From a virus: a stretch of 21,144 nucleotides of DNA. The DNA lies in IMG/VR virus record IMGVR_UViG_3300044980_000023, positions 1 through 21,144 of that record, one strand, 5' to 3'. The position numbers were made by a program, and so were the translations under genes. Under the pieces are notes generated by a model. The model was not told the origin of the DNA. It did no database searches and saw nothing but the letters and a program-made list of their open reading frames with translations. This document shows, piece by piece, positions 1-17,540 of this stretch (position 1 is the first letter of the stretch; every line of letters begins with the position of its first letter).

Positions 1-394
1 CCCATACGCGGGGATGATCCGCGACTGGTGGGTTAGGATCGGTCGTGACGATACTTTCCCGCAAGGACGCTCGAATCGCCACGCACTCAATCCACGGTGA
101 AAGACTGCCGACAACAAGTGTTGGGCCGGCAGGCGGCGATTCATTGATGGACGCGGCGACTGCTTCCCATGCCCCCGGATAATCCGGTGGTGCGTCCGGA
201 TGTTCAAGCATCCACTTGAAAAGTTCCCGAGTCCACATCAAGCGCGGCTCATGGCATCCATCGCGGTCAATATCACAGCCGCTCGTCATGGTCAGCCGTT
301 CCACGACTCCCGACGGAAATTGACCAGCCTCAATCTCGTGCGTCTTCCCGCACGCCGAACACGGCCGGGCGATTTTTTCGAGGATCGATCTCAT
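1..394 (-). CDS. DUF268/methyltransferase-like protein, N-terminal part (cut by window edge)
   Basis: The ATG at 392-394 overlaps the connector stop as ATGA, and the frame stays open to base 1, giving 131 residues of a longer protein. Residues 11-47 contain scattered Cys and a C-x2-C (CSAC), suggesting a small zinc-binding element. Residues 92-131 read LVVGSLSPWIECVAIRAS then VTTDPNPPVADHPRV, which resembles the opening of DUF268/SAM-dependent methyltransferase-like proteins (VGS-x2-PWxE, then VTT-x-D/E). The family call is a suggestion from this short stretch. The missing C-terminal part would decide it. Confidence 0.5.
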   Translation of the reverse strand, partial: MRSILEKIARPCSACGKTHEIEAGQFPSGVVERLTMTSGCDIDRDGCHEPRLMWTRELFKWMLEHPDAPPDYPGAWEAVAASINESPPAGPTLVVGSLSPWIECVAIRASLRESIVTTDPNPPVADHPRVW

Positions 395-1314
395 ACCATT
401 CTCGCCCCAACATCCCGATATTCCGCAAGCAAGTCCATCGCGCCTTGCGGGATGATCCGGATCTTATCGTTGAGCGTGTAATTGTAGTCCAACGCGCCTT
501 CCGACTTCAGCGCTGGATTTATGCGGCCGGTGCCCCAGATCGCCACGCACGTTAGCAGGCACGCTTCCTGCACCGCGTCGGGGACTTCGTTGAATCCGCC
601 CTGCCAGTCGCACCGGATATTCTGCTCGCCTGGCGGGAACCGCCCCCAGACGATCCCCTTCGGCGCGTCCAGTCTCCAGCCGTTACTAACCGTGAATTGC
701 GATATGCCGTCATAGAACAAGCCAGGGCCGCCGAACGGAGCATATTCGAGGTACTGGATCAGGCCGGCGCCAGGACCGTATAGGGTCTCATAGGCTCCTT
801 CGCTCGGCTGAAAATCGGCGCTCGCATTGTTCGCGTATCCCACGGTCGGCGTGGCCAGCCATCCGTTGCCGAGTGCGTTGACCGCATTGGCGACTGTCTG
901 CACGGTCGGGTAACTGCCCCACACGATCGATGAGTTCCACGCTTCAACGCCGCTGGCGACCGTGAAGAGGACGAGCCCGATTGCCGTTGTCCGCACGGTT
1001 GCCCGCGAGTATGTTGTCGTATTCGTGTTCTGGATTTGCAGAACAATCGTCGGCCGTGCCGCGAGACGGGTGATTTCCTGGATCGGGATTTCCGTGAGGT
1101 AGAAGACGTCGAACGGATATAGGCCACCGTCGAAAACCTTGGAGTAAAAGTTGCTGTTGAAGTTCCGCCGGCAATATCGCCTGATTTTGTTCGAGGCCGC
1201 CTTGATGATGTCATTCAACTGCCCGGCCGGAAGGTTCGCGAGAAACTGATTGGTCTGCGCGTAGTTCGGCGCGATGAGCGGCGGGATGGGATTTAGGATG
1301 ACTGGCGCGCTCAT
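391..1314 (-). CDS. gp6-like head-tail connector protein with large insertion
   Basis: A 307-residue protein, about two to three times the length of typical gp6-type connectors. The N-terminal part (NDIIKAASNKIRRYCRRNF at 34-52, then VFYLTEIPIQEITRL) and C-terminal part (VPDAVQEACLLTCVAIWGTGRI, then IIPQGAMDLLAEYR) match the two halves of the connector fold that closes the portal and links it to the tail. Between residues about 90 and 230 is an inserted beta-rich domain (RATVRTTAIGLVLFTVASG, VNALGNGWLATPTVGYA). Start and stop both overlap neighbours as ATGA. Confidence 0.8.
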   Translation of the reverse strand: MSAPVILNPIPPLIAPNYAQTNQFLANLPAGQLNDIIKAASNKIRRYCRRNFNSNFYSKVFDGGLYPFDVFYLTEIPIQEITRLAARPTIVLQIQNTNTTTYSRATVRTTAIGLVLFTVASGVEAWNSSIVWGSYPTVQTVANAVNALGNGWLATPTVGYANNASADFQPSEGAYETLYGPGAGLIQYLEYAPFGGPGLFYDGISQFTVSNGWRLDAPKGIVWGRFPPGEQNIRCDWQGGFNEVPDAVQEACLLTCVAIWGTGRINPALKSEGALDYNYTLNDKIRIIPQGAMDLLAEYRDVGARMV

Positions 1315-1568: not shown

Positions 1569-2126
1569 TCACTTCGTTCGTGTTTCGCCGGAGCGGATCA
1601 TCTTGTCGGCGGGAGGCCCTTTTGTGGATTTCGCTGGCGGCACATCGGGATAAATTCGATCGACGATCCTCTTGATGAGTTCCTCTTGGCCATCGCGCGT
1701 CACGGCGTTTTTTTCTAACGCTTCGCGCTTCTGTGCCGCCTCCAGGTCGGCCATGTTGCTCACGCCGTACTTCTCGAATTGGTGGGCCAAGGCATTCCGG
1801 ATTGAATGTTTCAAATGCGGCGATCCATTCCCTTCCCAATCTGCGGCGGAAATCGGGAACGTGTCGCCGGGTTGCGCGAGCGATCCGCCAACATAATCGC
1901 TCAGTGTTACGCCCGGCAGAACCGTTGAATTGCAGGATGCGTGCGCGGCCATAGCCGATTGCACTTCTCCTGTCGTTGCGAACGGCTTCAACCCCATCGT
2001 CTCCGCCGGGCCTCCGTACAATGATTTCCACGAACCTGAGCGGTCGAAATACTCCGCACCAGCCGCGCCGTGGCGCTTGCCGACGAATCCTGAACCGAAC
2101 GCGATGATCTTAGGGGTTTGGCTCAT
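1569..2126 (-). CDS. hypothetical protein with a capsid-like C-terminal motif
   Basis: The ATG at 2124-2126 is preferred because a GGAGG site lies upstream (though about 15 bases away) and the frame then starts seven bases after the glycosyltransferase stop. A GTG at 2162 would overlap it. The 185-residue product has a Gly/Ser-rich first half (IIAFGSGFVGKRHGAAGAEYFD), then a helical segment (HLKHSIRNALAHQFEKYG, then MADLEAAQKREALEK). Residues 150-162 read LIKRIVDRIYPDV, matching LVKQLVDRIYGDV in the capsid delta domain at nine of 13 positions. The basic, Pro-rich tail suggests flexible binding. No known domain. Confidence 0.6.
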   Translation of the reverse strand: MSQTPKIIAFGSGFVGKRHGAAGAEYFDRSGSWKSLYGGPAETMGLKPFATTGEVQSAMAAHASCNSTVLPGVTLSDYVGGSLAQPGDTFPISAADWEGNGSPHLKHSIRNALAHQFEKYGVSNMADLEAAQKREALEKNAVTRDGQEELIKRIVDRIYPDVPPAKSTKGPPADKMIRSGETRTK

Positions 2127-2133
2127 GCCGATT

Positions 2134-2742
2134 TTATACCGCCTCCCGATGCTTCCCGCCACAGTAATCGTGCCAGATGACGCAATCCGCTGGCTCAGGC
2201 CCGAACTCGCGGCGGATTACCAGATCTTCAACGCCGTTCTTTCGACACATCCAATTGTACGTCTTCGGGAGCCAGAACGGCTTGACCGGCGGTCGATGCT
2301 CTTTCCAAACGGCGTCCAGCGTCTGATCGTCAATCGCCGCCGGATTTGCATGACAGGCCGCGGACCATCGCACGAGAAGTTCTATCGCCGGCGCGGTATA
2401 CCCCCAGTACGAGACGCCGCCTGAATTCAAAAGTTTCGTGCCGTCAAATTGATGATCGGCCATGCACCAGTTGTAAATCGCGAAATCGTGTTCGTTTCGG
2501 CAGAGCAGTGCTGGGAACTTGCGGACGACGCAATCACAATCGAGCCATAGAACCGGTTCCCGCGCATCGAGCAGGTTTTGCAGGATGAACGCGGCCTTCA
2601 TGTTGATCGTGCGGTGCCAGGTCTCCCGGGAAGGCCCTTGTACGATCTTGTTTTTCAGGCCGACGGCTTCGCAGGATGCGCGGAGGCGATCGGCGAGGCG
2701 CGGGTATGCACCATCGGACGTGTAGAAGGAAATGGCGATCAT
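2134..2742 (-). CDS. second glycosyltransferase-like protein (DxD, nucleotide-sugar fold)
   Basis: A 202-residue protein whose ATG directly follows the SPFH stop. N-terminal MIAISFYTSDGAYPRLADRL resembles the first strand and helix of nucleotide-diphospho-sugar transferases. A DxD motif lies at D68-C69-D70 (VLWLDCDCVV). Then NSGGVSYWGYTAPAIELLVRW and DDQTLDAVWK follow, typical of this fold. The final residues GKHREAV are basic. It likely transfers a sugar to an acceptor unknown from sequence. Together with the epimerase and first glycosyltransferase it forms a compact sugar cassette. Confidence 0.68.
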   Translation of the reverse strand: MIAISFYTSDGAYPRLADRLRASCEAVGLKNKIVQGPSRETWHRTINMKAAFILQNLLDAREPVLWLDCDCVVRKFPALLCRNEHDFAIYNWCMADHQFDGTKLLNSGGVSYWGYTAPAIELLVRWSAACHANPAAIDDQTLDAVWKEHRPPVKPFWLPKTYNWMCRKNGVEDLVIRREFGPEPADCVIWHDYCGGKHREAV

Positions 2743-3279
2743 TTAATACCGCTGGTTGGTCTGCCCGGGCGTGATGTTCTCATGGCCCGATGTGCACCAT
2801 GATCCGCCGTTAATCAGCCGATAGGTCTTCACCTCTACGTCCTCGACGAACTTAACGAATTCAATTTCTACACCGGTTTCACCGGTGAAGTATTTCCTCA
2901 GATTGGCAAGGCTGACATCCGCATCACGCGACGCAGCGATTTCCCCTTGAGCTTTCGATATGACGATTTGGCTCGGTGCGCCAAATCTCGACATCGCCTT
3001 GAGCGGATCGGAAATCCTGAATCCGAGCGTAGAGGAAATATACCGCGTGCAATTCTTCGTGCTGCCGGCGACCGTTACGGGCGGCGTGGTCTCGATCCGC
3101 AGTCGCGTGTTTACGAAAGTAATCGTGTCAACGAACGGGATCCGAAAATGGAATCCAGGCGAAAGAGTGCGAGCATGTTTCCCGAAGCGGATGCGCACAC
3201 CAATTTCCCACGGTGGAATCGTCACCCAGAACTTCCACGAATCGAGAATCCGGGAAATCCATACGATGAATTCGTTCAT
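2743..3279 (-). CDS. SPFH/band-7 (stomatin-prohibitin-like) protein
   Basis: A 178-residue protein coupled by ATGA to the upstream glycosyltransferase. An N-terminal amphipathic or membrane-associated segment (FIVWISRILDSWKFWVTI) precedes a band-7 core: IPPWEIGVRIRFGKHARTLSPGFHFRIPFVD at 21-51, TRLRIETTPPVTV at 58-70, and YISSTLGFRISDPLKAM at 80-96. SPFH proteins form ring scaffolds on membranes; phage versions are rare. The protein lacks the long C-terminal coiled coil of full stomatins and ends in a short Gly/Asn/Gln tail. The next gene starts directly after its TAA. Domain call from motif pattern. Confidence 0.72.
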   Translation of the reverse strand: MNEFIVWISRILDSWKFWVTIPPWEIGVRIRFGKHARTLSPGFHFRIPFVDTITFVNTRLRIETTPPVTVAGSTKNCTRYISSTLGFRISDPLKAMSRFGAPSQIVISKAQGEIAASRDADVSLANLRKYFTGETGVEIEFVKFVEDVEVKTYRLINGGSWCTSGHENITPGQTNQRY

Positions 3280-4013
3280 TTCTTACCGATCCACGCCTTT
3301 CCATCGCGAATTTCTTCGGGGATTCCATTGGCCGCGAAGTCAGCCTCGGATTGGTATCTGGCCTTGAAATCCGGTCCTGGCCATGTCCGCACCCACTCCA
3401 TGTGCGCCACCGGGACTTTCATCGCGATGAATAGGGAGTTGCCAACTGATTCAAACATACGCCAAAAATTCATATCCGCAGGTACGTGGCCGTCATGCCA
3501 TTCCCCGTTTTTGTCCGGCTTGGCATAAAACCACGGCTTCGGCATCCTCCTGAGTGCGTCCACCCGAATCAGCGTCAGGCCGAAATGGGCAGAGACGACG
3601 CGGACCAGTTCATCGCTGAACATATGGCCCGGCACGACATTCGGAAGCGTGCCCGTCACCGGATCGCGTACGGCGGCTAGGACTTCATTGCAGTTGCGTC
3701 TGACTTGTAGGGCCGCGATTGCATCGGCGCGGTCGTAGGACCGCATCAGGGCGTAGAGCCGCGCGACATCTTCGACGCGGTGGGGGGTGTCGTAATCGAC
3801 CGTCAGGACGAATTCAGCCCCGGCGTCGCGAGCTTCTTCCATGCAACCCGTGAGGCTCTCGGACCAATACGCGGAAGTGTTTCGCCGCATTTTGATGCCC
3901 AGGATTCCAGCAACCTCGATTGCGTTGAAGGCTATCTCCGTCGGCATCAGGCGCGGCAGGGAGAAAACGCCAATCACCTTCCTCCCAATATCCGAGAAAT
4001 CCACGTCAGGCAT
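3276..4013 (-). CDS. glycosyltransferase (GT-A, DxD)
   Basis: A 245-residue cytosolic protein, eight bases after the epimerase with an AAAGGA ribosome site in the gap. It shows a GT-A pattern: an N-terminal nucleotide-binding half (KVIGVFSLPRLMP ... ECMEE-like helix), the DxD-type D73-Y74-D75 in FVLTVDYDTPH, then HFGLTLIRVDALRRMPKPWF at 143-162 and a C-terminal acceptor region with HVPADMNFWRMFESVGNSLFIA. Coupling to the epimerase suggests it uses a GDP-sugar, but the donor cannot be read. The stop overlaps the SPFH gene as ATGA. Confidence 0.72.
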   Translation of the reverse strand: MPDVDFSDIGRKVIGVFSLPRLMPTEIAFNAIEVAGILGIKMRRNTSAYWSESLTGCMEEARDAGAEFVLTVDYDTPHRVEDVARLYALMRSYDRADAIAALQVRRNCNEVLAAVRDPVTGTLPNVVPGHMFSDELVRVVSAHFGLTLIRVDALRRMPKPWFYAKPDKNGEWHDGHVPADMNFWRMFESVGNSLFIAMKVPVAHMEWVRTWPGPDFKARYQSEADFAANGIPEEIRDGKAWIGKK

Positions 4014-4021
4014 TATTTCCT

Positions 4022-5008
4022 TTAGACCGGCCTCGGGTATTGCCCTACCATCTGGTCGTAGATCCAGCGGTAGGTTTTCTCCATGCCGTCGCGAAGTTTC
4101 GTGGCCGGTTCCCAGTTTAGCAACTGGCGTACGAGCGTGTTGTCGCTGTTTCGGCCATTCACGCCTTTGGGCGCGTCGAGATTGTAGCGCCGCTTCAACT
4201 TGACGCCCGCGATTTCCTCAACGATGTCTGCCAGGCGGTTGATGCTGACGCCCTCGCTTGAGCCGAGATTGAGCGGATCGCGGATATCGCCGGCCATCAT
4301 CAGGTCGATTCCCTTGATGCAATCGTCGATGAACATGAACGAACGGGTTTGCTCGCCATCGCCCCATATTTCAAGATAGGTTTCGCCCGACAACTTGGCA
4401 TGGATGATCTTGCGGCACATGGCGGCGGGGGCCTTTTCGCGGCCGCCGTGAAAAGTTCCGCACGGCCCGTAGACGTTGTGTAACCGCGCGACACATGTCT
4501 CGACACCTCCATCCTCGCGATAATGACGGCACATTCTTTCACTGAACAGCTTTTCCCAGCCGTACCCATCTTCAGGCATCGCGGGATAGGCGTCGGATTC
4601 TTTCAGGGCGACATAGATTGACTTGGCGGCCTGTTTGTCGGCATTGTATACGCATGCCGATGACGCGAAGAAGAAATGTTCCACACCGCACTGACCGGCC
4701 GCGATCAGCAGGTGAGTGTTAATCAGGACGTTGAGCATGCACGCGGCCTTGTTTGTTTCGATGAAGCCGATGCCGCCCATGTCGCAGGCAAGATTGTAAA
4801 CCGTATCCGTACCAGATACGACGGAAAACGCTACTTCCCTGCGACTCAGATCGGCCACGAGATTTTCGGCATCGGGATATACTTGCTGCCAATCCTTGAG
4901 CGGCTTGATGTCCACCGCACGGACAGCGTGGCCCTTGCGAAGCAAATCGCCCACGAGGTGGCCTCCGATGAAGCCGCCGGCACCGCATACAAGAGTCTTG
5001 GATTGCAT
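4022..5008 (-). CDS. GDP-mannose 3,5-epimerase-like NAD-dependent sugar epimerase
   Basis: A 328-residue short-chain epimerase/dehydratase. The NAD-binding GAGGFIGG is at residues 9-16. The sequence tracks plant-type GDP-mannose 3,5-epimerase closely: ACDMGGIGFI at 74-83, SSACVY with C119, KESDAYPAMPEDGYGWEKL with Y149 and K153, GPCGTFHGGREKAPAAMCRK with K192, DGEQTRSFMFIDDC, and GRNSDN with R286. Spacing of Cys, Tyr/Lys and the second Lys agrees with the known catalytic set. The enzyme would convert GDP-D-mannose to GDP-L-galactose or GDP-L-gulose. The family is clear at motif level; the exact substrate is inferred. A much longer open frame reaching 5584 is an upstream artefact overlapping the accessory gene. 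Confidence 0.88.
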   Translation of the reverse strand: MQSKTLVCGAGGFIGGHLVGDLLRKGHAVRAVDIKPLKDWQQVYPDAENLVADLSRREVAFSVVSGTDTVYNLACDMGGIGFIETNKAACMLNVLINTHLLIAAGQCGVEHFFFASSACVYNADKQAAKSIYVALKESDAYPAMPEDGYGWEKLFSERMCRHYREDGGVETCVARLHNVYGPCGTFHGGREKAPAAMCRKIIHAKLSGETYLEIWGDGEQTRSFMFIDDCIKGIDLMMAGDIRDPLNLGSSEGVSINRLADIVEEIAGVKLKRRYNLDAPKGVNGRNSDNTLVRQLLNWEPATKLRDGMEKTYRWIYDQMVGQYPRPV

Positions 5009-5064: not shown

Positions 5065-5562
5065 CTAGTAGTCGTTGGGCGACACGCCAGCGCCGACAAT
5101 TTGCGATGCCAGAGATCCGGTCGTCGGACCCGCCCCGACAATCGGGGGAGTCAACTGAGGATCGCCCAGCACCACCATATTGCCGTACGTCTCGGCCGCC
5201 GCCGTCGTCCCACTGGTGGTGAACGTCAACGCGAATTCGACCCAGGAAAATCCGTTGTTCGCGTCGAATGACTGCGAATTCACGTTGATGACGGCGGCCT
5301 GGTTCGACGCCGTGATGGCCGTCGATAGCGTGATGGGATTCTGCATTGCCTTCGCGCCGGCTCCAGTGCTGCTCGTCGCCTGCTGCACCGTCGCGGTGAT
5401 CGATTCTCCGGAGCCGACAACCCCGACGGTGATGATTGCCTGAAAACGCTTGTAGTATCCCGCATTGATCCATCCGGTATTCGCCGAACTTGACGAATGG
5501 GTCGCGGGATAAAGAACGCCGATCAGCACTTGATCGTCGCTCAATGCTGTGTATCCAGCCAT
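5065..5562 (-). CDS. probable capsid-associated structural protein (165 aa)
   Basis: A 165-residue beta-rich protein directly after the capsid gene, preceded by an AAGAGGT ribosome site. It has the pattern MAGYTALSDDQVLIGVLYPAT, GYYKRFQAIITVGVVGSGESI, VQQATSSTGAGAKAM, then AVINVNSQSFDANNGFSWVEFALTF. This recurs in phage proteins encoded just after HK97 capsid genes, whose role is often given as decoration or simply hypothetical. No catalytic motif or Cys. A decoration, head-accessory or small spike role fits the fold pattern and position. The family link is recalled rather than tested. Confidence 0.65.
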   Translation of the reverse strand: MAGYTALSDDQVLIGVLYPATHSSSSANTGWINAGYYKRFQAIITVGVVGSGESITATVQQATSSTGAGAKAMQNPITLSTAITASNQAAVINVNSQSFDANNGFSWVEFALTFTTSGTTAAAETYGNMVVLGDPQLTPPIVGAGPTTGSLASQIVGAGVSPNDY

Positions 5563-5629: not shown

Positions 5630-6913
5630 TTAGCTCACGTTCGTGTTGAGCACGACGCACGGGCTGTACTTCAGGCTCGTCGATTTCGCACCGCTCAAGG
5701 TCGTGTCGCGCCACGGCCGGCCGTCCATGCGGAAAGTGGTCCGGTACGCGATTTCGTCCGTGAGGAAATAAATGTGAATCGACATCGCCCGAGCCATCCC
5801 GGTCGACTTGTAGCCGATGACGTAGGATTTCGCATCCCACTTGATGATGTCGCCTTGGTTGCCGAGCGGCTGACAGTTGATGAGCGGCATGACGCGGGTG
5901 CCGAGCAAGTTCGGCGGTCCCTTCACATCGCCCATCGTGCCGGGAGCGAAGTACAGGTATCGCCCGTTGGCGTCCTGCAACTGGAGCAACTGCGGATTCA
6001 CGTCGCGCTTGCTGATGAGCCAAACGCTGCGATCCTGGTTGCCGTCAAATGCCGAATCCATCGCGATGACATCCGGAGTCTGAACTTCCAAGCCGGCGGT
6101 TCTGGTCACGACAACCGTTGACGGATGGGAGACGATCCCAGTCGGCTGCCCGGCACCCGTGCCGTTGATGATCGCATCGTTGATCTTGTAGGTCATCGCC
6201 TCCGCTGTCAGGAAGTTGATAATCGACTCAATCGCAATGCCGTCCTCCATCAATTCGCTCGTCACCGGCGTCAGCACGGTCAGTTTGTTGAGCGTCAATT
6301 GCGGCTGACGATAGGCCGGCTTGCTCGTCGAGATCTGTGCGCCTTCACCCTCCCAATAGGCCGTTACGCCGAACTGGCCCTGCTGGATGTAGTTCAGGGC
6401 CGGGAGCTTCATGCTGTTTGATTCCATTGGAATCGTGAAGCATGAATTGAAAAGCGACTGCTGGCTGATGATGTCGTTGTAAATCGACGTCGCATACTGC
6501 ACCGGCGTAGCATATCCGCCGTCGGCGTCGATGTTTTCCGATGCCCCGTTGGCCTTGAGTCGGCGTGTCAATCGCTCGTCGCGCTCGCCGGTGCGGGCCT
6601 TGCGGACAGCGATGTAGAATTCGCCGGAGGACTTGAACCCGTCCGTTGGATCGGCCAGGTTGTTGTCCGGATTGACTACGAGGTCCGGGCGCTTGCCGGT
6701 CGCCTTGAATTGGACGTCGCCGTAAATGCGATCGACAAGTTGCTTGACGAGCCGATCGCGGAGTTCGGCCGCCTTCTGGACCACCTTTTCGTCCGGCTTG
6801 TGCTCAACGCCGAATCCGCCTTTGATGACGAAATCCGCAACGTTGTCCTCAAGCGCGGTAGTCGAGTCCGGCGCGTGTTCGCCGTACTGCTTGGAAAATT
6901 TGATTGTCTTCAT
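5630..6913 (-). CDS. HK97-fold major capsid protein
   Basis: The ATG at 6911-6913 is chosen for its CAAGGACT ribosome site and gives 427 residues; an upstream start at 6994 lacks support. Residues 1-115 are a charged helical delta-type domain (AAELRDRLVKQLVDRIYGDV). Residue 130 onward begins the mature fold with DADGGYATPVQYATSIYNDI, followed by the beta-hinge and spine (MKLPALNYIQQGQFGVTAYW), E-loop-like and P-domain segments, AEAMTYKINDAIINGTGAGQPTGI near 270, and the A-domain end with FRMDGRPWRDTTL. Several hundred copies form the icosahedral shell; the delta domain is removed by the protease encoded upstream. The precise cleavage site cannot be read. Confidence 0.95.
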   Translation of the reverse strand: MKTIKFSKQYGEHAPDSTTALEDNVADFVIKGGFGVEHKPDEKVVQKAAELRDRLVKQLVDRIYGDVQFKATGKRPDLVVNPDNNLADPTDGFKSSGEFYIAVRKARTGERDERLTRRLKANGASENIDADGGYATPVQYATSIYNDIISQQSLFNSCFTIPMESNSMKLPALNYIQQGQFGVTAYWEGEGAQISTSKPAYRQPQLTLNKLTVLTPVTSELMEDGIAIESIINFLTAEAMTYKINDAIINGTGAGQPTGIVSHPSTVVVTRTAGLEVQTPDVIAMDSAFDGNQDRSVWLISKRDVNPQLLQLQDANGRYLYFAPGTMGDVKGPPNLLGTRVMPLINCQPLGNQGDIIKWDAKSYVIGYKSTGMARAMSIHIYFLTDEIAYRTTFRMDGRPWRDTTLSGAKSTSLKYSPCVVLNTNVS

Positions 6914-6929
6914 GGGATGAGAGTCCTTG

Positions 6930-6948
6930 AAAAAACGCTTTGCGCTTT
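6930..6948 (-). other. weak hairpin with T6 run just before the capsid ribosome site
   Basis: On the transcribed strand AAAGCGC-AAA-GCGTTTT forms a 7-pair stem (one G-T pair) merging into six T residues, ending a few bases before the capsid AAGGA site. It looks like a short attenuator or terminator but the GC core is only three pairs. Either a leader element or chance. Confidence 0.3.
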
Positions 6949-7060
6949 CCCTGAACTCACCATCTCCACCGATCTTGCGTCCTACTTTCTCCACCGTTGC
7001 CGGCTAAAAGCTCCAGACGATCGGCTGACGTGTCCATCAAGGTACGGTCGCTGATTCGCG

Positions 7061-7181: not shown

Positions 7182-7670
7182 TTAGCCAGCCGCCTCTGGC
7201 GTGGCAAGGATTTTCTCGTTTCGCCTTGATTTGACGTTCGTTGCAAAGAAACTCCCTGGCGATTCTGCCGTGCGGAGTCCTTCGTAATCCGCGGCGGGGA
7301 CGCCGAAATACCGATAGATGCCCCCACCGACGAAGGCGATTTCCAGTTGCATCGCTTCCGGGTCGTACCGTGCCCACTTCAAATTCGACGAATTCTTGAA
7401 ATCGTGCTGACCGTTCGGAGTTGCGATCGGCTGCACCTGGCCCCATCCGTCGAACGTCACGGTCTCCGGAATCGCCTGATGCCGCGTAAATGCCGGATTG
7501 ACGAACGGAACGGCACCGCCTTGCGGGACATCCTGTAAATCCTCGTGCTCCACCAGAAGGACGACGCGCCCGCATTCGTCGGAAATGGCGCTGACGATTT
7601 CCGTTCCCGGCGGCAGATGTAGAACGTCGATCAGCAATTCGTTGGTGATTTGGAGCTTGCCGCGTTTCAT
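7182..7670 (-). CDS. KTSC-domain protein
   Basis: The ATG at 7668-7670 gives a 162-residue product and an ATGA overlap with the zinc-ribbon gene. An upstream in-frame start at 7739 would overlap by over 70 bases and is rejected. Residues 1-60 are a small domain (LLIDVLHLPPGTEIVSAISDE, then VVLLVEHEDL) often found in phage accessory proteins. Residues about 94-150 match the KTSC domain: SSNLKWARYDPEAMQLEIAF, GGGIYRYFGVPAADYEGL, AESPGSFFATNVK. KTSC is a small beta-rich domain found alone or fused to nucleic-acid enzymes. Its role in phages is not settled. The gene ends ten bases before the tRNA-like element. Confidence 0.75.
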   Translation of the reverse strand: MKRGKLQITNELLIDVLHLPPGTEIVSAISDECGRVVLLVEHEDLQDVPQGGAVPFVNPAFTRHQAIPETVTFDGWGQVQPIATPNGQHDFKNSSNLKWARYDPEAMQLEIAFVGGGIYRYFGVPAADYEGLRTAESPGSFFATNVKSRRNEKILATPEAAG

Positions 7671-7990
7671 GTTGCGATCCAATTCCTTTGTGCTTCGCAC
7701 TGATCGATGGTCAATTTCCCGGCCATCGGCAATCCGCACGATTTGCAGTAATTAGCGTGCGACACGTTGTCGAGGCGGCATTCGGTACAATATCCTTCGC
7801 GAATGTGTCGTCCTTCTTTCCAAATGCGAAATTCAAAATCTGATGTCCGCAAATAGATCGTCACCCGCGGACCGATCCCGTAAGCGAGCCATAAGCGCCA
7901 CTCATCGCTTCCCTCTCGTTCGGCGTTTATTGCTTCCAGCCGCAACAGCGGATAATTGGGACAGGGATCGCCAATGTTCGGAATCGGCAT
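7667..7990 (-). CDS. small zinc-ribbon protein
   Basis: A 107-residue protein. Residues 20-65 are a small beta-rich segment (EWRLWLAYGIGPRVTIYLRTS, then FEFRIWKEGRH). Residues 68-85 hold a clear zinc ribbon: C68-x2-C71, ten residues, C82-x2-C85 (CTEC ... YCKSCG). The C-terminus is a short helix. It begins ten bases after the protease gene and its stop overlaps the next start as ATGA. Zinc ribbons of this type commonly bind nucleic acid or stabilise small folds. No more specific role can be read. Confidence 0.7.
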   Translation of the reverse strand: MPIPNIGDPCPNYPLLRLEAINAEREGSDEWRLWLAYGIGPRVTIYLRTSDFEFRIWKEGRHIREGYCTECRLDNVSHANYCKSCGLPMAGKLTIDQCEAQRNWIAT

Positions 7991-8000
7991 TTGTCTTATC

Positions 8001-9959
8001 CTACACGCCCCCCATGTCCATTATCAACCTGTCCTCCACCTCCCGCATCGCCTCTTCCACGATTTCGTCGGTCTGAAGTTCGACCATCTTCGCGGCCAAA
8101 GCCTCAGCGTCGGCGTCCTTCTTGTCTTCATCGCGTTTTTGCATCATTTCCATGATCGCCTTTGCGGCCCCGGCAATCGCCGACGCGCCCTGGGCCGATG
8201 CCCGCGCTTCGGCGTTGGCGACGGCCTTGCGGTAGATCTTCCCTCCCTTCCCGACAGGATAAGCCCATCGTCCGGCGTTTTCTTTCGGCTGGGATGCATC
8301 GACGCCAAGGCACATCATCGGGTCAAGCTCGGTATCGTTCGGCTTCTCCCAGTCTTCGTCGCTGACATCGCCAGACGAAACTTTCGATTTGATATGGCTG
8401 ACTGCCGTATTCAGGCCGATCGATTTCGCTGCCTTGAGCGCCGCCGCCTTCTCCGCCGCGCTCATGCCGCCGGGAAGATCGGCGCCACCACCAGCCCCGA
8501 GCGGCGGGATTGCGTCCGAATTCGTCGTCACGGTTCCATCCGGCTTGACCATCGCGGGTTCTCCCCAATCCTTCCCGCACATCTTGCAGGTGAACATCAT
8601 CGCCGGGTGCATTGTCCCATCGGTCTTCATCATTTCCGGGGGCTTGTCGGCGTCCTTCATCATGACGGGCTTGCCATCTTCCCCCTTCATGACTTCGACG
8701 CTGTTATTGTGGCCGCACGCCTTGCACATCGGCATTGAAAGCGGGACGGCCATGCCGCCATCCGCCCCAACGTTTTCGCCCGCACCCATGTCCTTCTTGA
8801 GCATCGGCGCGGGTTGGCCGCCGTTCTCGTCAATCGCTGTCGCCGGTCCTGGCCCGGGCGCGGAGTCGGCCAAGTCCATCGCCTTGCACATCGTTTCGTA
8901 ATACGCCTTCCCAGCCGCACCGCCGTGCATCTGAGCTAAAGCGTAGGCCGGTGTTCCCGGCTTCGCCCCGACATGGTTCGGCGCGGCGTCATGGAACGCC
9001 TTACACGTCTTGCACATGCCCGGCGATGCTTCGCCACCCATCGCAAGGTGCATGCAGAGCGCTTTCATTTCCGGCGTGACGTGCGTTTTGCACTCGCCGG
9101 CCTCACAACGGGCCATCCCGTCCTTGTGGCAGGCGACGACTTCTTTCGGCGGCTGGAAGTCAAGATGCTGGTAGGTCTGCGGGCCGGGCGATGAGACGGG
9201 CGGCATGTCAGCCATTTTGGTGCTCCTGTAATTCGGCGGAACGACAATGATTGTCCGACGTGCGTTTTTTGCGGCTTGGATGCATGGCGTGTATGCTTCG
9301 ATCGCCTTGCGGAACATATCCGCCATCGGCGCGAATTCCTTGCTCACGCTCATCATCAGCGCTTCCTGATTCGCGCCGATCGGGCAACCAGCGTACTCGA
9401 AGCCGTGCCATTGGTCGATGATCGGCGCGGACTTCCAATCCGGGTGAATCTCAATCTCCGCTGGCGTTGCCGTCCGGATGTTCTTTGGCAGGAATCCAAT
9501 GCTTTTGCCCGTGCAAGTGGGCACAGGTTGTTGCATGAGATGGAGAACGGCAGAGGGAAGCCACGGTGCATCGCCCCAATCTTCGGGCTTCGTCGGATAC
9601 TGCGTACAGGCGACGATTGCATTCGGCGTGGCCTTCATCCAGAGGCACGAACCTAATGGTAATTGGTCGTACTGATGGCAGAAGGTGACGACATTATTGT
9701 AATCTTGCCATGACCCGCCAGCGGGGATGACTACCTCTCCGTCCCGGTCCTTCGCGTCGGTTGTAATCGTCGAAACGTCCGTCCGGCTCCCCGCGTCCAT
9801 TTTCAAGTCGGACGGCGCTACTGCTTTCGCCATGCGCCGATAGGTGAAGTCCTTCGGCAAGCCCTTCGCCGCCGTTTCAATGTCCCGCGCGATGTCCTCA
9901 AACATGCGCAGGCCCATCGGTCCCTCCACTACGGATTGTCCTTGGCGTAGCTTTTTCAT
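8001..9959 (-). CDS. HK97-type prohead protease fused to zinc-ribbon and scaffold-like regions
   Basis: A 652-residue protein from the ATG at 9957-9959 (a GTG at 10022 would add 21 residues). Residues 55-210 match the HK97 prohead protease: a DVSTITTDAKDRDGEVV opening, a candidate catalytic His95 (FCHQYDQLPLG), Ser153 in TGKSIGF, then the GCPIGANQEALMMSVS strand. It would cleave the capsid delta domain and itself during maturation. Unlike typical 200-residue proteases it continues with a Cys/His-rich block (C277, C285, C290, C302, C316, C319), two further C-x2-C knuckles (412-415 and 458-461) in a Met/Lys-rich stretch, and a helical acidic C-terminus (about 575-650) resembling a scaffold. Fusion of protease and scaffold is known. 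The Cys-rich insert is unusual. Confidence 0.85.
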   Translation of the reverse strand: MKKLRQGQSVVEGPMGLRMFEDIARDIETAAKGLPKDFTYRRMAKAVAPSDLKMDAGSRTDVSTITTDAKDRDGEVVIPAGGSWQDYNNVVTFCHQYDQLPLGSCLWMKATPNAIVACTQYPTKPEDWGDAPWLPSAVLHLMQQPVPTCTGKSIGFLPKNIRTATPAEIEIHPDWKSAPIIDQWHGFEYAGCPIGANQEALMMSVSKEFAPMADMFRKAIEAYTPCIQAAKNARRTIIVVPPNYRSTKMADMPPVSSPGPQTYQHLDFQPPKEVVACHKDGMARCEAGECKTHVTPEMKALCMHLAMGGEASPGMCKTCKAFHDAAPNHVGAKPGTPAYALAQMHGGAAGKAYYETMCKAMDLADSAPGPGPATAIDENGGQPAPMLKKDMGAGENVGADGGMAVPLSMPMCKACGHNNSVEVMKGEDGKPVMMKDADKPPEMMKTDGTMHPAMMFTCKMCGKDWGEPAMVKPDGTVTTNSDAIPPLGAGGGADLPGGMSAAEKAAALKAAKSIGLNTAVSHIKSKVSSGDVSDEDWEKPNDTELDPMMCLGVDASQPKENAGRWAYPVGKGGKIYRKAVANAEARASAQGASAIAGAAKAIMEMMQKRDEDKKDADAEALAAKMVELQTDEIVEEAMREVEDRLIMDMGGV

Positions 9960-10054
9960 GGGCTCGACCGAAATAGGTGCTGAGGAAGTTCTGTTCCGGC
10001 GGGACGGAAATAGAATCCGCACACCCGACAGTAATTGGCAGTCAGAGAGACCAA
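9956..10054 (-). CDS. possible small CxxC protein overlapping the protease start
   Basis: A 32-codon frame from a TTG at 10052-10054 reads LVSLTANYCRVCGFYFRPAG and onward, and its TGA overlaps the chosen protease ATG as ATGA, the same coupling used elsewhere in the operon. It carries one C-x2-C knuckle resembling ANYCKSCG in the zinc-ribbon protein encoded at 7667-7990. Against it: no good ribosome site, no ATG, and only one Cys pair. The frame is open without an ATG back to a stop near 10094. It may be a decayed remnant of a larger zinc-ribbon gene. Low confidence. Confidence 0.3.
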   Translation of the reverse strand: MVSLTANYCRVCGFYFRPAGTELPQHLFRSSP

Positions 10055-10098
10055 TAAAAGTTGTGTCCCATTATTGAAAACTTCTACCGTCAGTTATG

Positions 10099-10836
10099 CT
10101 ATTCCCGAGCCCGGCTCGATTCCGTATGCGCGATCGGCGGAAGACTTTTCGTCCATGCTAAAAGCTTCCGCTCCCAGTCCCCCGACCGATACGCGTCCGG
10201 TTGCTGCTTCTCGTACCGCGCCGCGCCAGATCCGCCGACGGTGTTGTTGCAATGCACGTCGCGGTTGAGGTTCGCCGCCTCGACCGTCCTGTATAGCTCA
10301 AACAGGAACGGATCGCCGTACTGGTTCGCCTTGGCGAACGTCTGCGGGAAGACGCGACCGAAGATGTCGATGTGCTGTCGATGAAAAATCGGGAATGTCG
10401 GGAAGTCTGGAAACGCATCGTCGTAGAACGCCTCAACGCCGTAGCCGCGATTGACGAGCGGGCGGCATAGCTTTTCGTCCCATCCCTCAGTGCGGAACTC
10501 AAGATCATCACCAGCGAACAGGAAGCAGTCGCATCCATCGCGGTATCCGCGCATGGCCAGCGTTTCCCAGATCGCACAAATCTTGTGCTCCAGGCCATCG
10601 AGAATGACCGGCACGATGGTTGCCCCGGTCGCTTTATAGAGTCGTGATGAGACCGCAGGCAGGCGTTCGCTGAAGTACTCATCGGTGTTATCGATGCCGA
10701 GATAGATCGTCGCCTCGGTTGCTTCGCTAATCGTGGCATTGAACGACTTCGCGAACACGTCGAATAGCCGCTCGGGAGCGAATAGCTCGCGCGATGTGAC
10801 CGGGAGGCCGATTTGCAATTTCGTTTTCTTCACCAC
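10099..10836 (-). CDS. GT-A type glycosyltransferase-like protein with MuF-derived tail
   Basis: A 245-residue protein starting with GTG, preceded by a GAGGAAAT ribosome site. It has a Rossmann-like N-terminal half (KLQIGLPVTSRELF ... ATIYLGIDNTDEYF), a metal-binding-type acidic pair in LFAGDDLEF at 107-114, followed by GWDEKL and a C-terminal half with FPIFHRQHIDIFG and NQYGDPFLFELYRTVEAANL. This pattern fits family-2-like GT-A glycosyltransferases in phages. The donor and acceptor are unknown. The last residues IAHTESSRAR match the MuF protein at 151-160, both in protein and DNA, so the 3' end looks like a recombination product. It follows the linker-bearing gene after a 99-base gap. Confidence 0.65.
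   Translation of the reverse strand: MVKKTKLQIGLPVTSRELFAPERLFDVFAKSFNATISEATEATIYLGIDNTDEYFSERLPAVSSRLYKATGATIVPVILDGLEHKICAIWETLAMRGYRDGCDCFLFAGDDLEFRTEGWDEKLCRPLVNRGYGVEAFYDDAFPDFPTFPIFHRQHIDIFGRVFPQTFAKANQYGDPFLFELYRTVEAANLNRDVHCNNTVGGSGAARYEKQQPDAYRSGDWERKLLAWTKSLPPIAHTESSRARE
10109..10135 (-). repeat. 27-base direct repeat of a MuF gene segment (copy A)
   Basis: This copy codes for IAHTESSRA at the end of the glycosyltransferase-like gene. It matches 13168-13194 in the MuF gene at 25 of 27 positions in the same orientation. Weaker similarity (an ATAACT block, with a 5-base length difference) continues just past the stop codon at 10099. Confidence 0.75.
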
Positions 10837-12192: not shown

Positions 12193-13643
12193 TTCTTCGG
12201 TCTCACAATCTCGCCCGTCTTGCTGTTCTTGAAGCAGCGCCCCTGTTTATCATTGATTTCCTTCCACTTTCCTTCATGCAACTTTCCGTCCGTTCGCTGA
12301 GCGCCTGGCGGCAGGTTGGCCTCGGGCGTCGCCATCAGTTTTTTGACTTCGCCGATGCTCTTGCATTTTTGCATTGACTCAATGCGCGCTGAACCAGCCA
12401 CACCACGCCGATAGTAATACACCCGTTTTGATTCGTCGTGTTTGGCTGCCCCTTTTGCGTTGTAGACTTCTCGATCGTCAATGACGCAGGTATGGAACGT
12501 AGCGTCGTTTTTTCCTTCCCACGCCACCTTGCGGACTTGGGCATAACGATCCATTGTGAGCTTTGACGCCTTGTTGCTCACCATTGTTTTCAATTCGATG
12601 CCATGCTCCACGCGGCCACCCCTCCCGGCCACAACATCGACGGGCTCGTTATCTGCGTACGACAGGCCACCGACGCCTTTTGCGAATTGCGGCTCGTTAT
12701 GCTCTTCCGCGTATCGCTGGATATCCTTGCCGACGTAGGTTGCCGATTGCTTGGCAATTTCTGCTTTCGTCTGGGGGCTCTGCGCCTTCTCGCTCGATCG
12801 CTTGCCGGATCGCTTCGCCACGCCGCCGCCTGCGCCTTCACCTGCCGAAAATTCGCCGCCCCCCGGTTCACCCGCCGGAACTCTCCCCTGTTCCTTCAGC
12901 CGCAATACCTTCGCGGCATTCGCTGCCCCCGCAGCATCGATTTCCTCGGGCGTCTTCAGCGGGAACGTCACGCTGCAAAAACAGTTTGGATGCCCTGGTG
13001 GATGCTCGACCGGCCCGTAATCCGTCACGCCGAACGGCTGATCGAACGGGATGACGCCTTGCGCCGCGTATCCCTGGCAAATAATGCAGGCGTCGGCCGC
13101 GATGAGCCATTGTTTACCCTGCGCCACCCCGCTTTCACTGACTGTAGTTATCTGCGCCGCATGCCGCGCCCGGCTCGATTCGGTATGCGCTATCATCGTA
13201 GCGCGGTTCTTGTCCAAGTCCTCGAAAACATCCATCACGCGATTGCGCATCAGGGTCCGCGTGTCGCCGGTCGTTATTCCCTCGACAAGTTCCTGGCGCA
13301 ATTGGTCAAGAGCTTCATTCAACTCCTTCGCGGTCGTGTCATTTGTGGCCTGAGAAAACTTCAACGCCTGAGCCTTCACCGCCGCCGGCAGGTTTCGGTC
13401 AACGACAGAGAAAAGATCGGGCGCTAGGGATGGCTTCGGTAATGCGGCAATCGTGTCTTTTACCGCCTCAACGCTCTCACCGAGCAGGTGCGGCGCGGCG
13501 GCGCGGGCAAGCGTATCCGTCCAGCCGGATAGGTCGAGTAGCGGCGCGACTTCGGCAACTTGGGCATCGAACGCGGCGATTGCCGGGTCAATGTCATCGG
13601 TTGCGGTTTCGTCGGACGCGTCTTTGGTGAGGATGGCGGTCAT
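12189..13643 (-). CDS. MuF-type head morphogenesis protein with nuclease-like C-terminal domain
   Basis: With the ATG at 13641-13643 (TGATG overlap with the portal, GGGAAG ribosome site) the product has 484 residues. Residues 100-230 are the Mu gpF/SPP1 gp7 head-morphogenesis domain: IAHTESSRAR at 151-160, a C-x2-C at 186-189 and the HPNCFC signature at 218-223. This family binds portal or capsid and can be packaged and ejected. A Gly/Pro linker (RVPAGEPGGGEF) at 254-265 joins it to a separate C-terminal domain. There D336 and E350-L-K352 have the spacing of a PD-(D/E)xK nuclease, followed by a strand with CVIDDREVYN. MuF proteins with toxin-like C-termini are known. The nuclease call is inferred from motif spacing only. 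Confidence 0.85.
   Translation of the reverse strand: MTAILTKDASDETATDDIDPAIAAFDAQVAEVAPLLDLSGWTDTLARAAAPHLLGESVEAVKDTIAALPKPSLAPDLFSVVDRNLPAAVKAQALKFSQATNDTTAKELNEALDQLRQELVEGITTGDTRTLMRNRVMDVFEDLDKNRATMIAHTESSRARHAAQITTVSESGVAQGKQWLIAADACIICQGYAAQGVIPFDQPFGVTDYGPVEHPPGHPNCFCSVTFPLKTPEEIDAAGAANAAKVLRLKEQGRVPAGEPGGGEFSAGEGAGGGVAKRSGKRSSEKAQSPQTKAEIAKQSATYVGKDIQRYAEEHNEPQFAKGVGGLSYADNEPVDVVAGRGGRVEHGIELKTMVSNKASKLTMDRYAQVRKVAWEGKNDATFHTCVIDDREVYNAKGAAKHDESKRVYYYRRGVAGSARIESMQKCKSIGEVKKLMATPEANLPPGAQRTDGKLHEGKWKEINDKQGRCFKNSKTGEIVRPKK
13168..13194 (-). repeat. 27-base direct repeat inside the MuF gene (copy B)
   Basis: Copy B lies in the conserved helix of the MuF domain (IAHTESSRA, residues 151-159) and matches 10109-10135 at 25 of 27 bases. 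It is likely the parental copy, because this motif is functional in the MuF family. Confidence 0.75.
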
Positions 13644-15708: not shown

Positions 15709-16035
15709 TCATCGTCCCGTGAAAAGGCGGTGGCCCGCGCTGACGATCCGTTGCAGAATGCTTCGATTGCCCGGCACTTTCGCAAGATGATGGCCAGGAA
15801 CGTTGACGATCAGCGCTGGGCCGATGCCGAAGAACTCGAGCCGCAATTGCGTTGCCGGTTTCCCATCTGGGCCGGAGTCGACGCGACGTTCCGTGACGTT
15901 CTTGAGCCGGCGCGGATCGATGCCGACTTCCGCGAGCCGCTGCCATATTGCGTCGCGCACTTCCGCCTTCAGCTTGTCGGCAGTGAAAGTCTTCAGGGGA
16001 GCGTCGGGAATTTCCTGGGCGAAAATGTCGTCCAT
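15709..16035 (-). CDS. hypothetical protein between terminase and portal (108 aa)
   Basis: I chose the ATG at 16033-16035, which shares a base with the terminase stop (TGATG) and has a GGAG ribosome site about 10 bases upstream. An in-frame ATG at 16065 has no ribosome site. The product starts MDDIFAQEIPD and is a small alpha/beta protein (LKTFTADKLKAEVRDAIWQRL, then LRLEFFGIGPALIVNVPGH) with a basic C-terminus (SAGHRLFTGR). No Cys, no signal peptide, no recognised family. Position between large terminase and portal suggests a packaging or portal-assembly accessory, but that rests on synteny only. Confidence 0.65.
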   Translation of the reverse strand: MDDIFAQEIPDAPLKTFTADKLKAEVRDAIWQRLAEVGIDPRRLKNVTERRVDSGPDGKPATQLRLEFFGIGPALIVNVPGHHLAKVPGNRSILQRIVSAGHRLFTGR

Positions 16036-17540
16036 CAGTCTTCTTCTCCGGAAAAGGTTTGCCACATCGCACGATCGCGAATCACGTCATTTTGCTGGAT
16101 TTTCGCGATGTTCATTTGTTCCGTCTCTACCGTCTGGCGTTTTTCATCAATCGCTTCGTCCCACTCGTCATCACGCTTGCCGCGCAAGGGTCCGCCGAGC
16201 CGCTGGACATGCAGGCAAGCATACGAAACCATGTCTACCTGATCGTCGTGTACGCCTTTCGTTGGGAAGCTCAACAGTTCAGCTTCAAATTCGCTCGTCC
16301 ATCCCGCGCCGATTGGCAAGTAAACCGCGCCATGCTCAAGGCGAATCTGCGCCGTCTGAGACCGCGCGAGCTTGTCGCCTTTTGCTTTGATGCCCCTGAT
16401 GTTTAGGCCGCGCTTGCGAACCGTCTGGACGACGCCGAGTCCGATGCCAGCTTTCTCGACCAGCAGATACGGAACATTATATTCATAGCAAATTTGCATC
16501 AACTTTTCTTCAACGTCGGGAATCTCGAATTGATCCCGCCAGACGTGAATGAAAAGAAGATCATAGGTCGGAGTGACATCGCATACCCCCATCACGGTAT
16601 AATCCGGGTCGTTGTCGTCCCGCTTCTCCGTCCCCGCAATGTCGGCTACCGCGAACCGACTGCACGACTCAACATGAACCGGCCTTTGTTCTTTGCCGAG
16701 CAAATAGTATTCCCCGGTCTCATTGAATCTCCAAGTCTTTCCTTCAAACCATTTGGCCTTGAACACGCCAGCATCCGGCCGCACGTCCCAATCACCGTGT
16801 CTAAGTTGCTTGCGCGTGATGTGGTCGAGTGCACTAAGACTTTCCTCGTAACTCTCCTTGTCCAGATACGGGTTATCTTCAAGCTTGGCCGAGACGAAAA
16901 CGCGATCCTCGCGCGTCTCTGCATCGATGAATCTGGATTTTACCCACGAATGTCCAACGCCCCCTGGGTTTGAAGCTGACCGCATACGGAGCGGCACGGG
17001 CATTTGATCCGGCTTGCGTAGACGACTGTGCAAATATCGATACTGGGATTCGGTGAATTGGGTGAGTTCGTCAAAACCGATGAATTGGAACGCAGCACCT
17101 TGGTATCGATATTTGTCAATCTCCGTCTTGAGGTATCCGAATGAAAGGGTTGATCCGTTCGGGAATGACCACTGATATTTCTGCCCGTCCCATTTCGCGT
17201 CGGTCCCTTGAAGAATCAGATGGGATAAGGGGATTAGCGCTTTCGGCAAACTCAGATCAGCGAACGTGCGGCGGAAGAGAATCGCGGCGTAGCCGGGGAC
17301 CGTCACGAACTGAAGAGCTGCGGCGAGAAGAGCGACCGACTTGCCGCCTCCCGCCGCCCCGCCATACATCACTTCCTTAGCGGGCCATGTCAGAAAAACG
17401 AACTGTCGCGGACTGGCACCTTCCCATACCTTATCGACAAGACGATTCAGGTATGGATTTTCAGTTACCGTTTTTCGGTACAGTTTCGACGCCCATTCTT
17501 TGTCGGGCAAAAGACTCGAACTCTTGGGAGCAGCGTTCAA
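16035..17540 (-). CDS. terminase large subunit (packaging ATPase/nuclease)
   Basis: A 501-residue protein with a full terminase layout. It has a Walker A-like motif at residues 60-68 (GGAAGGGKS), Walker B with catalytic acid at 153-158 (FIGFDE), and a coupling-type SNPGG at 190-194. The C-terminal RNase H-like nuclease has candidate acids D300 (VADIAG), E362 (LLVEKAG) and the HDDQVD cluster at 431-436. It powers DNA translocation into the prohead and cuts the concatemer, docking on the portal. The start overlaps the small subunit by 80 bases. No later ATG precedes Walker A, so this ATG is accepted, though an internal non-ATG start cannot be excluded. The stop overlaps the next gene as TGATG. 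Confidence 0.95.
   Translation of the reverse strand: MNAAPKSSSLLPDKEWASKLYRKTVTENPYLNRLVDKVWEGASPRQFVFLTWPAKEVMYGGAAGGGKSVALLAAALQFVTVPGYAAILFRRTFADLSLPKALIPLSHLILQGTDAKWDGQKYQWSFPNGSTLSFGYLKTEIDKYRYQGAAFQFIGFDELTQFTESQYRYLHSRLRKPDQMPVPLRMRSASNPGGVGHSWVKSRFIDAETREDRVFVSAKLEDNPYLDKESYEESLSALDHITRKQLRHGDWDVRPDAGVFKAKWFEGKTWRFNETGEYYLLGKEQRPVHVESCSRFAVADIAGTEKRDDNDPDYTVMGVCDVTPTYDLLFIHVWRDQFEIPDVEEKLMQICYEYNVPYLLVEKAGIGLGVVQTVRKRGLNIRGIKAKGDKLARSQTAQIRLEHGAVYLPIGAGWTSEFEAELLSFPTKGVHDDQVDMVSYACLHVQRLGGPLRGKRDDEWDEAIDEKRQTVETEQMNIAKIQQNDVIRDRAMWQTFSGEED

Follow-up and report, generated by a model that had tools for sequence, protein, structure and literature searches.

A small sugar-modifying island lies within the head operon of a probable Planctomycetota phage, known from a 21,144-base virus record analysed over its full length (the window). 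Its four genes (2134–5008) encode a GDP-mannose 3,5-epimerase (GME), a glycosyltransferase (GTb), a short Band 7 protein and a second glycosyltransferase (GTc). On balance the island is probably a virion-glycosylation module inserted in the head operon. It would be expressed late from that operon, with GTb and GTc, co-translated with the GME, transferring the L-sugar of its donor product, or sugars built on it, to the capsid or a decoration protein. The footing of this proposal is the gene order, the family and active site of the GME, the families of the glycosyltransferases and the absence of the sugar genes from related proviruses, all of which can be read in the DNA. We infer that the enzymes would be active, that GTb and GTc would use the L-sugar donor and that a virion protein would serve as acceptor. 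The narrower proposition, that the phage makes its own GDP-L-galactose or GDP-L-gulose in the head operon and that this L-sugar coats its capsid, is more tentative.

All assigned genes of the window are on the minus strand. In the direction of the operon they run from the small and large terminase through portal, MuF, GTa (a possible third glycosyltransferase), protease, major capsid protein and small head protein into the island, and thence through two genes of unknown function to the head–tail adaptor (Table 1). The original prediction had set the island between capsid and connector genes, and this placement holds, with the major capsid and small head proteins on one side and the adaptor on the other. 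The predicted epimerase gene with a full catalytic set is likewise intact, opening with an ATG at 5008 and carrying the complete set of GME residues. The two tightly coupled DxD glycosyltransferases said to follow it are GT-A-like, do possess such motifs (DYD and DCD) and are closely spaced, but they are not adjacent, as an overlooked Band 7/SPFH gene separates them. GME and GTb are co-oriented with a gap of 8 bases, GTb and the Band 7 gene overlap by ATGA, and the junction of the Band 7 gene with GTc reads TAAATG. The HflK/stomatin-like Band 7 gene is tightly coupled to both glycosyltransferase genes. Upstream of the capsid gene, at 7182–7739, lies a gene for a KTSC-domain protein (PF13619, 6e-19).

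Table 1. Genes of the island and of the surrounding head operon.
Feature	Position	Strand	Length (aa)	Basis or remark
GME, GDP-mannose 3,5-epimerase	4022..5008	-	328	plant GME in PDB, catalytic residues, tree
GTb, putative GT-A glycosyltransferase, kin to STIV A197 and to phrog_1574-type proteins of phages	3276..4013	-	245	
Short Band 7/SPFH-domain protein	2743..3279	-	178	PF01145, 1e-13, residues 20-114
GTc, nucleotide-diphospho-sugar transferase family protein	2134..2742	-	202	PF03407
GTa, possible third glycosyltransferase, outside the island	10099..10836	-		phrog_14945, E 0.0012, weak
Small head protein, likely decoration, possible acceptor, upstream of the island	5065..5562	-		phrog_28483, 3e-19
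Major capsid protein, possible acceptor	5630..6994	-		PF05065, 1e-32; phrog_10, 5e-37
Gene downstream of the island	1569..2126	-		no family match (Pfam, PHROG)
Head–tail adaptor, downstream border of the island	391..1314	-		phrog_442, 6e-13

Sequence comparison identifies the epimerase firmly as a GME. Its best match among solved structures is plant GME (4e-87), the next family in the PDB search being UDP-glucuronate decarboxylase (5e-26), and it is 46% identical to the Arabidopsis enzyme (AtGME). The NAD-binding motif of the SDR superfamily, GxxGxxG, is present as GAGGFIG (residues 9–15), and the S...YxxxK signature as S117, Y149 and K153. Residues S117, C119, Y149, K153, E191, K192 and R286 correspond to Arabidopsis Ser143, Cys145, Tyr174, Lys178, Glu216, Lys217 and Arg306. 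The set thus includes the catalytic Cys145 and Lys217 and the assisting Arg306 (C119, K192 and R286 here), whose roles have been described (PMC6678494). The phylogeny called for in the original prediction took the form of a quick tree of 80 proteins, with a long-branch warning at the join of plants and outgroup and with UDP-sugar enzymes represented in the PDB search instead. In it the epimerase groups with plant and bacterial GMEs and not with GDP-fucose synthase, GDP-mannose dehydratase or dTDP-sugar enzymes, all GMEs separating from E. coli gmd, fcl, rfbB and rfbD (SH-aLRT 99). The window protein has bacterial and viral GMEs around it in the tree, its nearest neighbour being a sequence from Phycisphaerales (Planctomycetota; support 91), and its closest bacterial relatives, at 62–69% identity, are uncharacterised proteins. 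A dTDP- or UDP-sugar identity is ruled out by the gap in the PDB search, the tree and the catalytic residues. Its predicted product is a donor of a rare L-sugar, either GDP-L-galactose or GDP-L-gulose. The enzyme has its catalytic residues and NAD motif in common with the characterised GMEs of Arabidopsis and Methylacidiphilum (MfGM35E); unlike these it is phage-borne and lies inside a head operon.

There is good reason from sequence to regard GTb and GTc as glycosyltransferases. GTb itself matches no family in Pfam or PHROG, phrog_1574 included, and its kinship emerged through L137, a GTb-like protein of 210 residues from a six-frame search of Planctomycetota genomes, which has matches to phrog_1574 (5e-21) and also to glycosyltransferases in PHROG. 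Against a profile built from L137, six phage relatives and A197 of the archaeal virus STIV, GTb scores 35.7 bits, whereas none of 500 shuffled versions of it exceeds 4.8. At 22–26% identity GTb is a remote member of the family. Its DxD motif is DYD at residue 73, and Asp180 aligns with the catalytic base of A197, Asp151 (PMC4187194). The GED motif, common in the A197/phrog_1574-type family although not known to be required, reads PAD in GTb, where the catalytic Asp alone is kept. GTc matches PF03407 (Nucleotid_trans) with 26.7 bits against a curated cut-off of 22, and carries DCD at residue 68. GTa is weakly indicated as a glycosyltransferase by its PHROG match and a DD motif; phmmer gave no significant match to a member of phrog_14945, and direct kinship to the glycosyltransferase beside the GME of viral contig L004 was not significant. 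Single-sequence AlphaFold models were too poor for structure search (pLDDT 36 for GTb, 45 for GTa). Scans of viral contigs returned no relatives of GTb, GTc, GTa or the portal, and a scan of genome contigs none of GTb. The 3' end of GTa (10105–10135) and the MuF gene (13164–13194) share a direct repeat of 31 bases at 90% identity, and both copies encode IAHTESSRAR, as if a remnant of MuF had been fused to the tail of GTa.

The host is probably a bacterium of the Planctomycetota. Of 294 Planctomycetota genomes 10 have portal relatives, whereas no genome from Verrucomicrobiota (0/289), Acidobacteriota (0/199) or Pseudomonadota (0/200) has one, the phylum being the one given in the title of each search's central locus; the restriction of these relatives to one of four phyla points to a host there. 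A Verrucomicrobiota host, hinted at by the top GME match, is unsupported by these counts. In contrast to the portal, the large terminase (16035–17540) has its closest cultured-phage relatives in the methanogen phages psiM2 and psiM100 (39% identity). Among Planctomycetota genomes there are proviruses whose portal, protease and capsid proteins are related to those of the window. Four of these were followed beyond the capsid gene, three of them as far as the adaptor and one into the later genes of its contig; this stretch has no sugar gene and encodes proteins of unknown function along with small ones of head type. A relative of the small head protein directly follows the capsid gene in one Planctomycetota provirus (L241), and another (L243) has a similar gene. 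Since the interval from capsid to adaptor is shared with related proviruses but contains no sugar gene in them, the island is an insertion into a gene order that is otherwise common to both, which vindicates the word 'inserted' in the earlier description. Compositional foreignness was considered and rejected: in GC content and codon usage the island resembles its neighbours.

Insertions of sugar genes between capsid and connector genes are already known. Cluster J mycobacteriophages carry 8–10 inserted genes at this position, many of them for glycosyltransferases (PMC3706429), and the arrangement that marks the cluster J type, glycosyltransferases between capsid and head–tail connector genes, is found in the window when it is compared with Minerva. 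In Omega and Minerva, as here, several glycosyltransferases and other non-structural genes separate the major capsid gene from the connectors. The cluster J insertion differs in its methyltransferase and kinase genes, its lack of a GME and its Mycobacterium host, and only gp14 and GTb are recognisably common to the two. In Minerva the gene immediately following that for the capsid encodes gp14, a GTb-family member that scores 46.9 bits with the profile. Other GTb relatives show the same placement: their genes come next, or almost next, after that for the capsid in three Manatee Spring phages, a Microcystis phage and a P22-like phage as well as in Minerva (MW202462, MW202496, MW202711, MW202691, Microcystis phage Mel-JY34 and Minerva); a further relative is in the head-to-tail gene region of Methanobacteriales virus vir323. 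Eighty IMG/VR contigs encode the nearest relatives of the MW202496 protein; they were chosen by similarity to that one phage and so are not independent. Of these, 40 have a capsid homologue no more than 2.5 kb upstream and 78 have at least one homologue of the MW202496 head-region genes. Cyanophage relatives of the family, in the two regions examined, are not beside capsid genes. What is new, within the material examined, is the joining of a GME to such an insertion.

STIV offers a more distant parallel. Its A197 (PDB 2C0N) is a GT-A glycosyltransferase, as GTb probably is, and the two have a DxD motif and a catalytic Asp in common (PMC4187194); A197 is essential, and the major capsid protein of STIV is glycosylated (PMC10551542). 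STIV is, unlike the window phage, a non-tailed archaeal virus, and the similarity of A197 to GTb is remote. Phage-encoded glycosyltransferases, as in the window, are also a feature of virion glycosylation in mycobacteriophages, where, according to Freeman et al. 2023 (cited in PMC11256854 and PMC12619734), they reportedly decorate capsid and tail proteins of Che8 and others. To our knowledge neither a dedicated donor-making enzyme in STIV nor an L-sugar donor enzyme in the mycobacteriophage systems is known, and capsid glycosylation has been shown for few phages only. In the F1 mycobacteriophage Maravista the glycosyltransferase genes are near the 3' end of the genome (PMC11256854).

Two readings of the island are live, virion modification and remodelling of the host surface, of which the former is the likelier. 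The original prediction preferred it too, and that preference survives because GTb relatives adjoin capsid genes in several unrelated phages and the STIV capsid is glycosylated. Against it stand the remoteness of GTb, with its GED to PAD change, and the setting of other viral GMEs away from head genes. In the 33 contigs that carry them, the neighbours have nothing in common with those of the window GME except a weak terminase similarity in L004 and L005. The viral GMEs examined lie among genes for GT2, GT11 and GT25 glycosyltransferases and for methyltransferases (FkbM included), outside recognisable head-gene neighbourhoods; no head family is among their 25 commonest neighbour matches, and a GME among head genes was found in no other phage examined. 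Such clusters are usually taken for host-surface genes, and this company is what would be expected were the L-sugar added to host polysaccharide or lipopolysaccharide, blocking superinfection or altering a receptor, with the head-operon position signifying late expression only. The GME of cyanophage S-SCSM1 sits in just such a sugar/methyltransferase cluster and has been interpreted in this way (PMC9602691), and a place in a late operon would also be apt for enzymes that work on the host envelope. Despite this, an action on the host surface is somewhat unlikely: no membrane-bound glycosyltransferase, polymerase or flippase was recognised in the 21-kb window, late expression would leave little time for superinfection exclusion, and the capsid-adjacent position of GTb relatives recurs in unrelated phages.

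A further question is whether the product of the GME is used by its neighbours. GTb and GTc may instead glycosylate the virion with ordinary host donors, the GME serving another purpose or a glycosyltransferase outside the 21-kb fragment. Donor specificity is not revealed by the sequence of a glycosyltransferase, and the STIV and mycobacteriophage modules function without a known GME (PMC10551542). This arrangement is nonetheless improbable given the 8-base spacing and common orientation of GME and GTb and the recurrence of GME–glycosyltransferase adjacency in other viruses. In S-CAM9, SynMITS9220M01 and L004 glycosyltransferase genes come immediately after a GME gene, a pattern suggestive of donor–transferase coupling, though short of proof of donor use. 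The cyanophage clusters (S-SCSM1 ORF123, S-CAM9 and SynMITS9220M01) resemble the island in this order of genes; they differ in belonging to large T4-like phages, in forming a separate GME clade and in having no head genes in the stretches examined. Glycosylation of hypermodified bases in phage DNA, a known activity of phage glycosyltransferases (PMC12619734), is very improbable here, for no base-hypermodification genes were recognised in the 21-kb window, the island stands among head genes and GTb is kin to A197 and to capsid-adjacent enzymes. In L004 an independent GME–GT–GT cassette (7989–10239) has two glycosyltransferase genes with 4-base overlaps.

Virion modification thus being favoured, this phage may sugar-coat its own particles. 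If so, a head-operon cassette that combines donor synthesis with transfer would predict the sugar in advance, a specific and testable outcome. Phages infecting cyanobacteria, mycobacteria and probably Planctomycetota have one glycosyltransferase family beside their capsid genes, archaeal viruses have kin of it, and this recurrence suggests that virion glycosylation is commoner than has been recognised. In the environmental phage lineage of the 80 IMG/VR contigs (L151–L230), where the capsid proteins are about 84% identical the glycosyltransferase encoded after them is often only about 50% identical; the transferase therefore changes much faster than the shell.
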